64,000 nt of DNA from Phaeocystidibacter luteus (lineage in GTDB: Bacteria; Bacteroidota; Bacteroidia; Flavobacteriales; Schleiferiaceae). Positions within the stretch are counted from its first letter, which is position 1, and each line of letters opens with the position of its first letter. The DNA is taken from contig NZ_WBVO01000002.1 in NCBI RefSeq assembly GCF_008933115.1, positions 62,001 through 126,000 of the forward strand, in the 5' to 3' direction. The translations under genes were made by a program, and so were the position numbers. The notes beneath the pieces are model-generated. The model searched no databases and was not told the DNA's origin. It saw nothing but the letters and a program-made list of their open reading frames with translations. This document shows positions 21,361-40,387 of this stretch, piece after piece.

Positions 21361-21510
21361 TGAAGCGCTTTATTTATCGATTTTGGTGTGAATTCTCCTA
21401 CAAGGTACGGCAAACATGTACATCAAACACGATGCCGACATTGTCATTTTGTTAATAACTAACGTAGAAAGTTGCCGAAAGGTTTGCGTGAGGGAACGTT
21501 TTTTTGGCAA

Positions 21511-21594
21511 GGCTAAAGGCTAAAGGCTAAAGGCTAAAGGCTAAAGGCTAAAGGCTAAAGGCTAAAGGCTAAAGGCTAAAGGCTAAAGGCTGAA
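21511..21594 (+). repeat. Heptamer array: 11 perfect GGCTAAA copies plus one variant
   Basis: GGCTAAA is repeated 11 times without error (21511-21587), then GGCTGAA (21588-21594) and a degenerate copy. It ends about 10 bp before the tadA -7 element, so it occupies the region where the -33 element should lie. The repeat number may vary by slipped-strand mispairing. Confidence 0.97.
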
Positions 21595-21604
21595 GGCTGT
21601 TACC

Positions 21605-21616: not shown

Positions 21617-22060
21617 ATGGAAATCGACCTCTACTCAGACGAACGGTTTATGCGTGAGGCGCTAAAGGAAGCGGTGAAGGCATTTGACATGGATGAAGTT
21701 CCCGTTGGGGCAGTGGTGGTGAGCAACAATAGGATCATTGCAAGGGCTCACAACCTCACGGAAAGGCTTCAGGATGTAACGGCTCATGCCGAAATGCAGG
21801 CCATCACAGCGGCGGCTAACCACCTTGGTGCAAAGTACCTTACCGATTGCACGTTGTTCGTTACACTTGAACCATGCTCCATGTGCGCGGGAGCACTTTT
21901 TTGGTCGCAGGTTGGAAGAGTCGTCTACGGCGCGAGTGATCCCAAACGTGGATTCCTCCAACAAGGCGGTAAGCTCCACCCAAAAACGGAAATCAAAACC
22001 GGTGTAGAGGCAGAGTCGTGCTCAGATTTATTGGTGGAGTTTTTTAGGAGGAAGAGGTGA
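21617..22060 (+). CDS. tadA: tRNA-specific adenosine deaminase (nucleoside deaminase family)
   Basis: A 147-residue cytidine/deoxycytidylate deaminase-fold enzyme that would convert A34 to inosine in tRNA-Arg(ACG). The zinc site is complete: HAEMQAI (His and catalytic Glu, about residue 58) and PCSMCAGAL (two Cys, about 88-91). The N-terminal helix FMREALKEAVKAFDMDEVPVGAVVV is typical. Length fits TadA. A related guanine or cytosine deaminase is possible but less likely. The gene has a heptamer array in its promoter region and a terminator 23 bp after its stop. Confidence 0.92.
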   Translation: MEIDLYSDERFMREALKEAVKAFDMDEVPVGAVVVSNNRIIARAHNLTERLQDVTAHAEMQAITAAANHLGAKYLTDCTLFVTLEPCSMCAGALFWSQVGRVVYGASDPKRGFLQQGGKLHPKTEIKTGVEAESCSDLLVEFFRRKR

Positions 22061-32370: not shown

Positions 32371-32478
32371 GCTAGATTATGTTGGTTTTTGGGGAATATA
32401 CTGATTTCTCGTAGAGAACAGGAGGGATTAGCGTGGTGGAGAGAGGGCGCTGTGGATGTGCGTGGTGGATCAGCGGGC

Positions 32479-32677
32479 GTGGGGGATCATCGAATGTGTT
32501 CCACCCGCCGGCTGGCGGGCAAGCTGCAAAACCGCAAAATGCAAAACCGCCATAAATCAAAATGGTAGTTGCGTATAAAAACCGCAAAAAACAACTACCC
32601 CTAAATGAAATTGATTGCCGCTCAGAATCCCCATCTATAGGCACGGTGCTTTAGCGCGTGCCGGGCCTCGGATGAAC
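32479..32677 (+). repeat. Intergenic element, copy A
   Basis: Starts at GTGGGGGATCATCGAATG and ends after GCCTCGGATGAAC. It contains a CCCGCC/GGCGGG stem (near 32503-32518), an inverted repeat GGTAGTTG/CAACTACC and, at its end, a REP-like hairpin (32640-32662). Copy B follows directly and differs at roughly eight positions over 187 bp. Confidence 0.9.
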
Positions 32678-33116
32678 GTGGGGGATCATCGAATGTGTTC
32701 CACCCGCCGGCTGGCGGGCAAGCTGCAAAACCGCAAAATGCAAAACCGCCATAAATCAAAATGGTAGTTGCGTATAGAAACCGCAAAAATCAACTACCCT
32801 AAATGAAATTGATTGCCGTTCAGAATTCCAAGCTATAGGCACGGTGCTTTAGCGCGTGCCGGGCATTATCATCCTGACGCCATTCCCCGGAGGGGATAAT
32901 TTTAATAGCCTCGTGGCTTTAGCCCGAGGTGGGTCACGGTGCTTTAGCGCGTGCCGAGCCTCGGATGAACGTGGGGGGTCATCGAATGTGTTCCTCGCAA
33001 AACCGCAATGTTAGAATCATCGGAGTGCGTAAAAACCGCAAAAAACAACTACCCCTAAATGAAATTGATTGCCGCTCAGAATCCCCATCTATAGGCACGG
33101 TGCTTTAGCTCATGCC
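32640..33116. repeat. Five REP-like hairpins with constant TTTA loop
   Basis: Copies at 32640-32662, 32838-32860, 32909-32929, 32934-32955 and 33094-33116. The main form is GGCAC, a bulged G, GTGC, loop TTTA, GCGC, GTGCC. The copy at 32909 has a different stem (CCTCG/CGAGG) but the same one-base 5' bulge and GGC-TTTA-GCC tip, so stem bases co-vary around a fixed core. This is the style of REP elements mobilised by RAYT proteins; no RAYT gene is in the window. Confidence 0.75.
32678..32864 (+). repeat. Intergenic element, copy B
   Basis: Near-identical to copy A over 187 bp, head-to-tail with it. It carries the same internal stems and the REP-like hairpin at 32838-32860. Confidence 0.9.
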
Positions 33117-33120
33117 GGGC
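32971..33120 (+). repeat. Intergenic element, copy C (internally deleted)
   Basis: Shares the ends of copies A and B, but the CCCGCC stem and the left arm of the GGTAGTTG inverted repeat are missing or changed. It ends in a decayed REP-like hairpin (33094-33116). Confidence 0.85.
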
Positions 33121-33160
33121 TAGGAATAGGATTGGGTTTTGACCCTCACGCGTTATGTCT

Positions 33161-33330
33161 CATGCCTCTGGCCTCACGCCTCACGCCTTTTGCCTGAGGG
33201 CTGAAATCTCATGCCTCCGGCCTCCGGCCTTACGCCTTTTGCCTGAAGGCTGAAATCTCATGCCTCCGGCCTCCGGCATTACGCCTTTTGCCTGAAGGCT
33301 GAAATCTCACGCCTAAAGCCTCTCGCTTAC
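33161..33330 (-). repeat. 49-bp tandem repeat (3 copies) with heptamer sub-structure
   Basis: Three 49-bp units: 33161-33209, 33210-33258, 33259-33307, plus a partial unit to about 33330. Read on the minus (purQ sense) strand each unit is seven heptamers, five of the form GGCNNNA (e.g. GGCAAAA, GGCGTAA), then GATTTCA and GCCTTCA or GCCCTCA. The purQ stop codon lies in a GGCGTAA heptamer at the array edge. Confidence 0.9.
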
Positions 33331-34019
33331 GCCTTCACCATATCCAGAATGCTCTCAAACATAGCCTTGCCGTCTAGGTTGCCAAGGTTTTCGTCTGCCG
33401 CTCTTTCTGGGTGTGGCATCATGCCGAAGACATTTCTGTTCTCGTTTGTGATGCCCGCAATGTTCTCTACAGAACCATTCGGATTCGCCTCGGCGTTGAT
33501 ATTGCCATCGGCGTCACAGTAGCGGAATAGAATTTGGTCGTTTGCGTTTAGCTTCGCGATAGTGTCTTCGTCGGCGTAGTAATTTCCTTCGCCGTGGGCA
33601 ATCGGAATTTGGTATGCCTTATTTGAATCAAGTCCGCGTGTTACCAAGCTGTTCGTAGACTCTGGCTTGAGGTATACGTTCTTGCAAATGAACTTGTGAC
33701 TGTCGTTGTGAAGCAAGGCACCTGGAAGAAGGTGCGATTCAGTGAGCACTTGGAATCCGTTACAGATGCCGAGTACGTAGCCACCCTTGTTGGCGTGCTC
33801 AATCACCGCATCCATAATTGGAGAGAAGCGTGCAATCGCGCCTGAACGGAGGTAGTCTCCATAAGAGAATCCACCAGGAAGCACTACAAAGTCCACACCC
33901 TGAAGGTCCGTGTCTTTATGCCACAATTCAACAGTTTCACATCCCATGATGTTACGCAACACGTAAATCATGTCTTGATCACAGTTCGATCCCGGGAAGG
34001 TTACTACACCAAATTTCAT
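33327..34019 (-). CDS. purQ: Phosphoribosylformylglycinamidine synthase subunit PurQ
   Basis: A 230-residue class I glutamine amidotransferase that supplies ammonia to FGAM synthase in purine synthesis. Visible: FPGSNCDQD (N-terminal PurQ signature), LPGGFSYGDYLRSG (oxyanion region), GICNGFQVLTE (nucleophile Cys, about residue 86) and MMPHPERA (His/Glu of the triad). As a separate small PurQ it implies separate PurL and PurS, not in the window. ATG 34019 fits the family and lies 17 bp after a TACCTTTG element; the longer frame to 34070 would include that element. Confidence 0.96.
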   Translation of the reverse strand: MKFGVVTFPGSNCDQDMIYVLRNIMGCETVELWHKDTDLQGVDFVVLPGGFSYGDYLRSGAIARFSPIMDAVIEHANKGGYVLGICNGFQVLTESHLLPGALLHNDSHKFICKNVYLKPESTNSLVTRGLDSNKAYQIPIAHGEGNYYADEDTIAKLNANDQILFRYCDADGNINAEANPNGSVENIAGITNENRNVFGMMPHPERAADENLGNLDGKAMFESILDMVKA

Positions 34020-34036
34020 GCGCTCTGAATTTGTTG

Positions 34037-34044
34037 CAAAGGTA
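34037..34044 (-). promoter_or_regulatory. -7 element of purQ
   Basis: TACCTTTG on the minus strand, 17 bp before the ATG at 34019. Confidence 0.6.
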
Positions 34045-39646: not shown

Positions 39647-40237
39647 ATGGGACGACTATCTATTGTACTTTCAACTTTAGCAATGGTATTAATGGCTTGC
39701 AAGAGTGAGCCAACTCAACCAATTGCATCAACAATGAATTCAGAAATGAGCGAGGAAACAGCAGTTGCGATTTACGCCTCAGGATGCTTCTGGGGGACTG
39801 AATATTACATGAAACGCCAAGAAGGCGTTATCTCGACCACCGTGGGTTACACGGGTGGACATGTGGACAATCCTACGTATCAAGAGGTTTGTTCAAAAAC
39901 TACCGGTCATTACGAAGCCGTAAAGGTGGAGTACGACCCATCTATCGTATCCTACGAAGAATTGACCCGCCTCTTCTTCGAAACACACGATCCTACACAA
40001 GCAAACGGTCAGGGTCCAGATATCGGTCCGCAATACCGCAGCGCCATTTTCGTGGCAAATGATTCAGAACGCGAAATCGCCGAAGATCTCATTGGCATTC
40101 TCGAGGCTAAAGGTCTAGACATTGCCACCGAGGTCAAGGACGCAGCCACTTTTTGGGACGCCGAAGGATACCATCAAGATTATTACGACAATAAGGGAGG
40201 AACGCCGTATTGTCACGGGTATCGGAAGTTGTTTTAA
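39647..40237 (+). CDS. msrA: Peptide-methionine (S)-S-oxide reductase, lipoprotein form
   Basis: A 196-residue MsrA that reduces Met-S-sulfoxide in proteins. Catalytic GCFWGTEYYM (about 45-54), GYTGGHVDNPTY, GHYEAVKVEYDP and YRSAIF are present; a C-terminal Cys (PYCHGYRKLF) can resolve the sulfenic acid. The first 18 residues form a lipoprotein signal (LAMVLMAC), so this MsrA should act in the periplasm, tethered to a membrane, rather than in the cytosol. Single gene; a heptamer-type repeat spacer lies downstream. Confidence 0.94.
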   Translation: MGRLSIVLSTLAMVLMACKSEPTQPIASTMNSEMSEETAVAIYASGCFWGTEYYMKRQEGVISTTVGYTGGHVDNPTYQEVCSKTTGHYEAVKVEYDPSIVSYEELTRLFFETHDPTQANGQGPDIGPQYRSAIFVANDSEREIAEDLIGILEAKGLDIATEVKDAATFWDAEGYHQDYYDNKGGTPYCHGYRKLF

Positions 40238-40238
40238 G

Positions 40239-40340
40239 ATTAAAGGCGAAAGGCTAGAGGCAATAGTATTCAGGCTAGAAGGGAAAGCGCCATTGGCATA
40301 AAATTCCTTCAGAGCCTCAAGCCTCAAACCTCAAGCCTTT
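40239..40340. repeat. Facing heptamer-type arrays after msrA
   Basis: The plus strand starts with GGCGAAA GGCTAGA GGC (about 40245-40262). About 60 bp on, the minus strand reads GGCTTGA GGTTTGA GGCTTGA (about 40336-40316). Both fit the GGCNNNA scheme of the arrays at 21511 and 33161, and the two arms partly complement each other. Confidence 0.6.
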
Positions 40341-40387
40341 TACCCACTACCTGAACTTCACCCTATTTTCATACTAAAACCGCCCAC

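Follow-up and report, generated by a model that had tools for sequence, protein, structure and literature searches.

The 49-bp repeat array behind the purQ-like gene belongs probably, though by no means certainly, to a heptad satellite private to its species, of which 30 arrays were examined and which would have grown by slippage, spread between loci and settled at gene edges. The window is the whole stretch of 64,000 nucleotides that was analysed; its genome (G000, Phaeocystidibacter luteus, 3.21 Mb in 27 contigs) was compared with those of two congeners, G001 and G002. We rank the species-private satellite first, as the most likely explanation, an element at mRNA 3' ends second and a recognised heptad code third. 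The arrays are intergenic heptameric simple-sequence repeats, in that 7-bp tandem loci are many, exceed chance expectation and lie outside coding sequence.

The array and its surroundings are arranged as follows:

33158 to 33335, minus strand: heptad array behind purQ, a 49-bp higher-order array of AGGCNNN with 17 AGGC (Tandem Repeats Finder and unit listing)
33327 to 34037, minus strand: purQ-like gene (glutamine amidotransferase subunit; Pfam GATase_5, 2.7e-47), its stop codon inside the first heptad
32478 to 33120, no strand assigned: longer repeats separating the purQ heptads from the next gene (three copies of 91 nt, two of 123 nt, hairpin-like CACGGTGCTTTAGCGCGTGCCG)

The first-pass annotation had described the array as a seven-by-seven higher-order repeat of a degenerate heptamer, and this description holds. 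Tandem Repeats Finder gives a period of 49, 3.7 copies and 89% matches for 33158-33335, and on the purQ strand the steps from one AGGC to the next are 13, 7, 21, 7, 14, 7, 21, 7, 7, 7, 7, 21, 7, 7, 7 and 7. A single 7-bp register is kept throughout, apart from the first step of 13 beside the purQ stop codon, the usual odd heptads among AGGCNNN being AGATTTC and AGCCTTC. The further claim of five GGCNNNA heptamers per 49-bp unit is correct for two of the three full units, but not for the one nearest purQ, which has four and carries TGCCGGA as a substitute. The array had also been said to start at the stop codon of purQ. The TAA does lie in a heptad (the 3' end codons are GTG AAG GCG TAA). The next AGGC, however, is 13 and not 14 bases away, which shifts this heptad by one base relative to the others. 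In-register build-up is found elsewhere as well, in the 14-bp units AGGCTTG-AGACTTC (L037) and AGGCTTT-GGGCTTC (L040). Heptads have thus grown in register at 7, 14 and 49 bp, consistent with slippage and with unequal exchange that keeps the register; on the satellite reading they would arise and lengthen by replication slippage in this way. Among the longer repeats nearby, the 91-nt copies are 198 and 256 bp apart and the 123-nt copies 199 bp apart, and CACGGTGCTTTAGCGCGTGCCG is REP-like.

The purQ-like protein shares 62-89% identity with its counterparts in nine of ten relatives searched and 34% in the tenth, and its C-terminus is VKA in G000 and VK in G002. An M3 peptidase gene at another locus has a frame that also ends in the first heptad (L043:2987-2994; AAG GCG stop, as at 33327-33334 of the window). 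Since the G002 orthologues of both proteins stop one residue sooner, the final residue and the stop codon seem to come from the repeat. The purQ protein would thus have gained one residue from the array, and so would the M3 peptidase.

A search of the genome for in-register runs, which the first-pass annotation had proposed, revealed a large excess: AGGCNNN matched 84 times in four consecutive units (44 and 40 on the two strands) and 120 times in three, whereas the reversed pattern, used as control, gave 0 matches in both cases. The window itself holds four AGGC runs of at least three units, three of them of at least four, compared with 0 in 200 dinucleotide shuffles of the window, and AGGC/GCCT comes top of the 256 tetramers for 7-spaced runs there. 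When lag-7 arrays were sought by a core-blind scan, all five found in 464 kb of G000 had AGGC (four in the window, one in the other 400 kb), all five in 141 kb of G002 had AGTA/TACT, and four of five in 171 kb of G001 were of GRTG type. Period 7 was no commoner in the G000 scan (five arrays) than periods 6 (six), 8 (six), 12 (five) or 15 (eight), and shuffled copies yielded 0 to 1 arrays per period.

The 30 G000 arrays comprise all 19 with runs of at least four units plus 11 shorter ones from the matches listed, which cover about 100 of the 120 places with runs of three; the place C6:37724 is left out, and the long array L040 is counted as two. For G002 there are 47 rows, which include some overlapping readings of one place (L127, L129, L132) and leave out arrays at the ends of contigs C37 and C45 and at the starts of C55 and C57. 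Several G002 contig ends (L087:1-28, the ends of L128 and L150, the start of L159) lie inside or beside TACTGGG arrays; the assembly thus breaks at such places, and the arrays probably extend further than the contigs show. Repeats of other periods were also observed. G000 has eight-base arrays of ACCCTCYA and AGTCYANN, the former often 5' of start codons (e.g. L063:1825-1880, L034:3274-3321, L073:7043-7214), and at L082:10465-12153 of G001 nonamers GTTTNAGGN, GGATGAC heptads and hairpin-like CGCGNGAATCCTTTCGCG are clustered and repeated within 2 kb. Two distant genomes (G173 and G327) gave 322 and 290 matches to the reversed control (CGGA/TCCG heptads), more than the AGGC family of G000.

Besides the purQ array, the window contains these arrays and adjoining genes:

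21510 to 21600, plus strand: 13 AGGCTNN heptads, 11 of them AGGCTAA, 16 bp upstream of a deaminase gene start
21617 to 22060, plus strand: the deaminase gene downstream of that array (Pfam MafB19-deam, 8.8e-37; dCMP_cyt_deam_1, 5.2e-31)
40244 to 40278, plus strand: AGGC array of four units, 6 bp past the stop of an msrA-like gene
39647 to 40237, plus strand: peptide methionine sulfoxide reductase (msrA-like) gene directly 5' of that array (Pfam PMSR, 7.2e-61)
40310 to 40351, minus strand: short AGGCTTG-type array facing the one at 40244 (core-blind lag-7 scan; Tandem Repeats Finder row 40313-40338)

The deaminase gene is probably tadA, a name that we infer. The array in front of it does not adjoin a stop codon, and the divergent gene starts 149 bp away from this array.

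The position of the arrays relative to genes is strongly biased. Genes around the 30 G000 arrays were called by codon usage, and a laxer caller was run as a second pass. None of the arrays lies inside a called gene, and some overlap the last bases of one. Twelve of the 30 start at most 15 bp from an upstream same-strand stop codon with AGGC in the sense orientation, and none in antisense. When arrays were placed randomly within their own gaps and on random strands, 0.65 such cases were expected for the 29 arrays with both neighbours, and 12 or more occurred in 0 of 5000 simulations; among the 19 arrays with runs of at least four, which are all that the genome has, there were eight, compared with 0.40 expected. 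The laxer caller again gave 12 and 0, L031 entering the set and L038 dropping out. A similar count was obtained for G002, where TACT-strand arrays are found at stops in one sense in 12 of the 47 rows and in the opposite sense in one; nine of the 27 rows with both neighbours are at stops (1.39 expected; the observed number reached in 0 of 5000 simulations). The genes 5' of the stop-side arrays in G000 are unrelated. Pfam supports 11 of the 12 in the first caller's set, namely purQ- and msrA-like genes, folD, a glycosyltransferase, an LRR protein gene, dsbD, yidC, meaB, an M3 peptidase, a transaldolase/aldolase and hemF, and the remaining one, at L063, has no Pfam match. With arrays masked, the first 50 bp outward from stops have a G skew of about -0.02. 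This is near zero, so background composition is ruled out as the source of the stop-side polarity. Outward from starts the skew is +0.25 in the first 25 bp.

Contingency repeats for phase variation, which would switch the adjoining gene, are slippage-prone as these repeats are, and one array does lie 16 bp 5' of a start codon. However, the dozen arrays that follow stops, those behind the purQ-, folD- and yidC-like genes among them, make such a role very improbable.

The sense polarity at stops speaks for a predicted element of mRNA 3' ends, in which the sense strand would be transcribed between stop and terminator and G-U-rich hairpins would protect or shape the 3' end. In L146 and L041 the array does lie, as judged by eye, between the stop and a terminator-like hairpin. 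The RNA of the purQ array strand has a minimum free energy (MFE) of -82.9 kcal/mol (z -6.8), z is -2.0 or lower for 11 of the 19 G000 arrays of at least four units, and the TACTGRG arrays of G002 fold well. We nevertheless consider this explanation unlikely. The other eight of the 19 arrays fold in no unusual way, and the TACTGGA/TACTCAA arrays of G002 have an MFE near 0, although four of these poorly folding arrays are at or near stops (L088 15857, L130 1974, L132 2039, L150 2029). Moreover, several arrays lie close to gene starts, and the stop sites compared have no array in the sister species. An Rfam scan of 13 sources gave one match, a tRNA in L151, and assigned none of the arrays searched to a known RNA family. 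G-quadruplexes were rejected as a candidate, none being predicted in 19 G000 and 33 G002 arrays (ViennaRNA quadruplex option).

A second regularity concerns the side to which the G strand points. Of the two genes flanking a heptad array, the one 5' of it on the G strand is the nearer in 23 versus 5 cases in G000 (24 versus 3 and one tie by the first caller) and in 21 versus 5 in G002, both by the laxer caller. Separate counts gave 16 versus 1 for the G000 octamers (ACCCTCYA, n=17) and 7 versus 0 for the G001 nonamers. The G001 heptads, with 5 versus 6, show that this outward-G rule is not general, and as a universal rule it was rejected. Such counts, and facing arrays in L037, L038 and L148, are what repeat addition at break ends would predict, in which a broken chromosome would receive G-rich repeats at its 3' ends and then be rejoined, leaving the G strand outward from each gene. 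We give this little credence, since the G001 heptads and the window array at 21510 break the rule, neither G000 nor G001 has a PF00078 match, and the G skew near starts is partly background. With one PF00078 match in G002 and 0 in the other two genomes, a reverse transcriptase was dismissed as the repeat-adding enzyme.

The words of the arrays differ between the three congeners. Runs of four number 84, 0 and 0 for AGGC in G000, G001 and G002, 0, 0 and 77 for AGTA, and 0, 14 and 0 for GATG, and AGGC runs of four are absent from all 39 relatives searched, both congeners included. The AGGC core is thus private to the species among the congeners and near relatives searched. In a set of seven genomes, TCCG runs of four occur 13 times in G004, once in G010 and in none of the other five. 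Across the phylum, 33 of 395 genomes, G000 counted (31 of 371 good genomes), have AGGC runs of four, at places where NNN is mostly uniform among the matches listed. AGTA runs of four are likewise present in 10 genomes from other genera, so that a word need not belong to a single lineage.

Individual sites turn over as well. The array behind purQ was seen in none of 10 relatives (420 bp read behind the gene; one relative is a weak match). The gap orthologous to that of 21510 is short in G001 and has no array, and the gaps orthologous to L146 and, aligned on one side, L043 have none in G002. The stop orthologous to that before 40244 is followed in G002 by octamers of GGTGCGCA type and in G001 by a hairpin, and no AGGC array is seen there by eye. 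Hence the array is absent at all five orthologous sites compared out of 30 (purQ, 21510, 40244, L043, L146), where gaps and terminators were judged by eye and L038, which aligned poorly, was left out.

Within the unit, the columns are not equally conserved. In units with a core unit on both sides, the middle unit itself being unselected, the four core columns of G000 carry 1.41-1.65 bits and the other three 0.17-0.53 (126 units, 99 with exact core), and those of G002 1.69-2.00 and 0.76-1.00 (109 units, 102 with exact core), a contrast inflated by the selection of arrays by their core. The G000 values argue against slippage alone, which predicts equal decay of all seven columns. They would also suit a recognised code, in which a putative protein or RNA binds a fixed tetramer every seven bases and has changed its specificity between sister species, by analogy with the omega protein (ribbon-helix-helix), which binds DNA heptads (parS), and TRAP, which binds spaced RNA triplets. 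Three observations are consistent with this: conserved columns stand beside freer ones in both G000 and G002, the cores of the three congeners exclude one another, and in G005 an intact AGTA is accompanied by very variable NNN. It still seems improbable to us, because core conservation is inflated in arrays chosen by core, the neighbouring genes are unrelated and AGTA heptads occur in the 10 genomes of other genera. Slightly more doubtful again is the proposal that each species of the genus has a private code of a fixed tetramer every seven bases and a nearly free spacer, read at gene ends by a putative species-specific DNA- or RNA-binding factor, with code and reader replaced together.

The flanks bear on how heptads might have spread. 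In G000, where the 5' flanks are mostly gene-side, 22 of 30 3' flanks and 5 of 30 5' flanks resemble another locus; in G002 the numbers are 20 of 42 and 16 of 42. Simple repeats were left unmasked and may contribute part of this similarity. A single mobile element carrying all G000 heptads was rejected, as 25 of the 30 5' flanks resemble no other among the 30, while those 3' flanks that are shared look like several different repeats. A composite element carrying heptads is more plausible in G002, where, as judged by eye, the stop is usually followed by (TACTGRG)n, then a spacer of some 50-65 bp, then (TACTGGA)n and octamers, with a terminator-like hairpin at some loci.

We return to the species-private satellite as the preferred reading. 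In its favour are the excess over the reversed control, the exclusive cores of the three congeners, the placement at stops, the shared 3' flanks and the array-free sites in relatives. One core at many loci with shared 3' flanks requires copying between loci or selection, and heptads may have been copied along with neighbouring intergenic repeats. Insertion would be cheapest at a gene edge, above all between stop codon and terminator, and old sets would be lost and replaced, leaving different words in sister species; a regulatory function is unnecessary on this reading. However, slippage by itself explains neither the constant polarity at stops nor the conserved half-unit; both point to copying that depends on the strand or to some recognition of the core. 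Other observations also count against the satellite reading. The heptads are tied to no copying enzyme: a Y1 transposase (PF01797) was rejected as common cause, with three matches in G000, one in G002 and none in G001. In G002, 5' flanks are similar nearly as often as 3' flanks, and in the G000 core-blind scan period 7 does not exceed the other common periods.

REP/BIME-like elements are extragenic, dispersed palindromic repeats associated with RAYT Y1 transposases. The heptads resemble them in being extragenic and dispersed, with Y1 transposases present in G000 and G002, but they are direct and non-palindromic, and G001 has heptads without a PF01797 match. Cyanobacterial STRR heptanucleotides have their own words, whereas the host of the AGGC arrays is a member of the Bacteroidota, not a cyanobacterium.

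The closest published counterparts are heptads of GGGNATC or GGGGA(C/T)T in Xanthomonas and Nostoc (PMC4692102). They have period 7, are dispersed, mostly intergenic and degenerate, have the nearer gene on their 5' side, and neighbour, besides hypothetical genes, mainly genes of general metabolism; they carry three or four G per unit, with quadruplexes shown in vitro, and most sites are common to two xanthomonads (PMC4692102). The AGGC arrays agree with this description in lying near stops on the sense (G) strand (12 of 30 within 15 bp, 0 antisense). They differ in having two G per unit and no predicted quadruplex, and in that all five compared sites are free of the array in the sister species, where the core differs, although the congeners may be more distant from each other than the xanthomonads. 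PMC4679880 describes TAACTGA heptamers in Beggiatoaceae, some cyanobacteria and five Bacteroidetes as mostly intergenic direct repeats, patchy by species, with one fixed word, mostly just 5' of start codons in the main species; some Bacteroidetes have a close relative with a shorter, repeat-free gap (PMC4679880). The likeness to AGGC lies in intergenic heptamer direct repeats with a patchy distribution; the word differs, the AGGC unit combines four fixed letters with three that are nearly free, and 12 of 30 AGGC arrays directly follow stops. Mrazek 2007, as cited in PMC4679880 and PMC4692102, found heptanucleotides to be the top class of long simple repeats in most genomes studied and proposed polymerase slippage; a split unit or a change of core between sister species goes unmentioned in that citing text. 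Heptamer-derived satellites are among the most abundant bacterial families, according to PMC6749651. Neither AGGC heptads nor sister species with different heptad cores were found among the titles and abstract openings listed by searches of the open-licence literature.

Heptads are described as the top class of long simple repeats in many bacteria, which raises the questions of why they have seven bases, why they lie behind stops and how they spread. In a genus with different words at different sites, the birth, spread and replacement of heptads are traceable over short times, and a unit with one kept and one free half could separate slippage from recognition. If it were true that code and reader are replaced together, this would amount to a bacterial recognition system that evolves fast.
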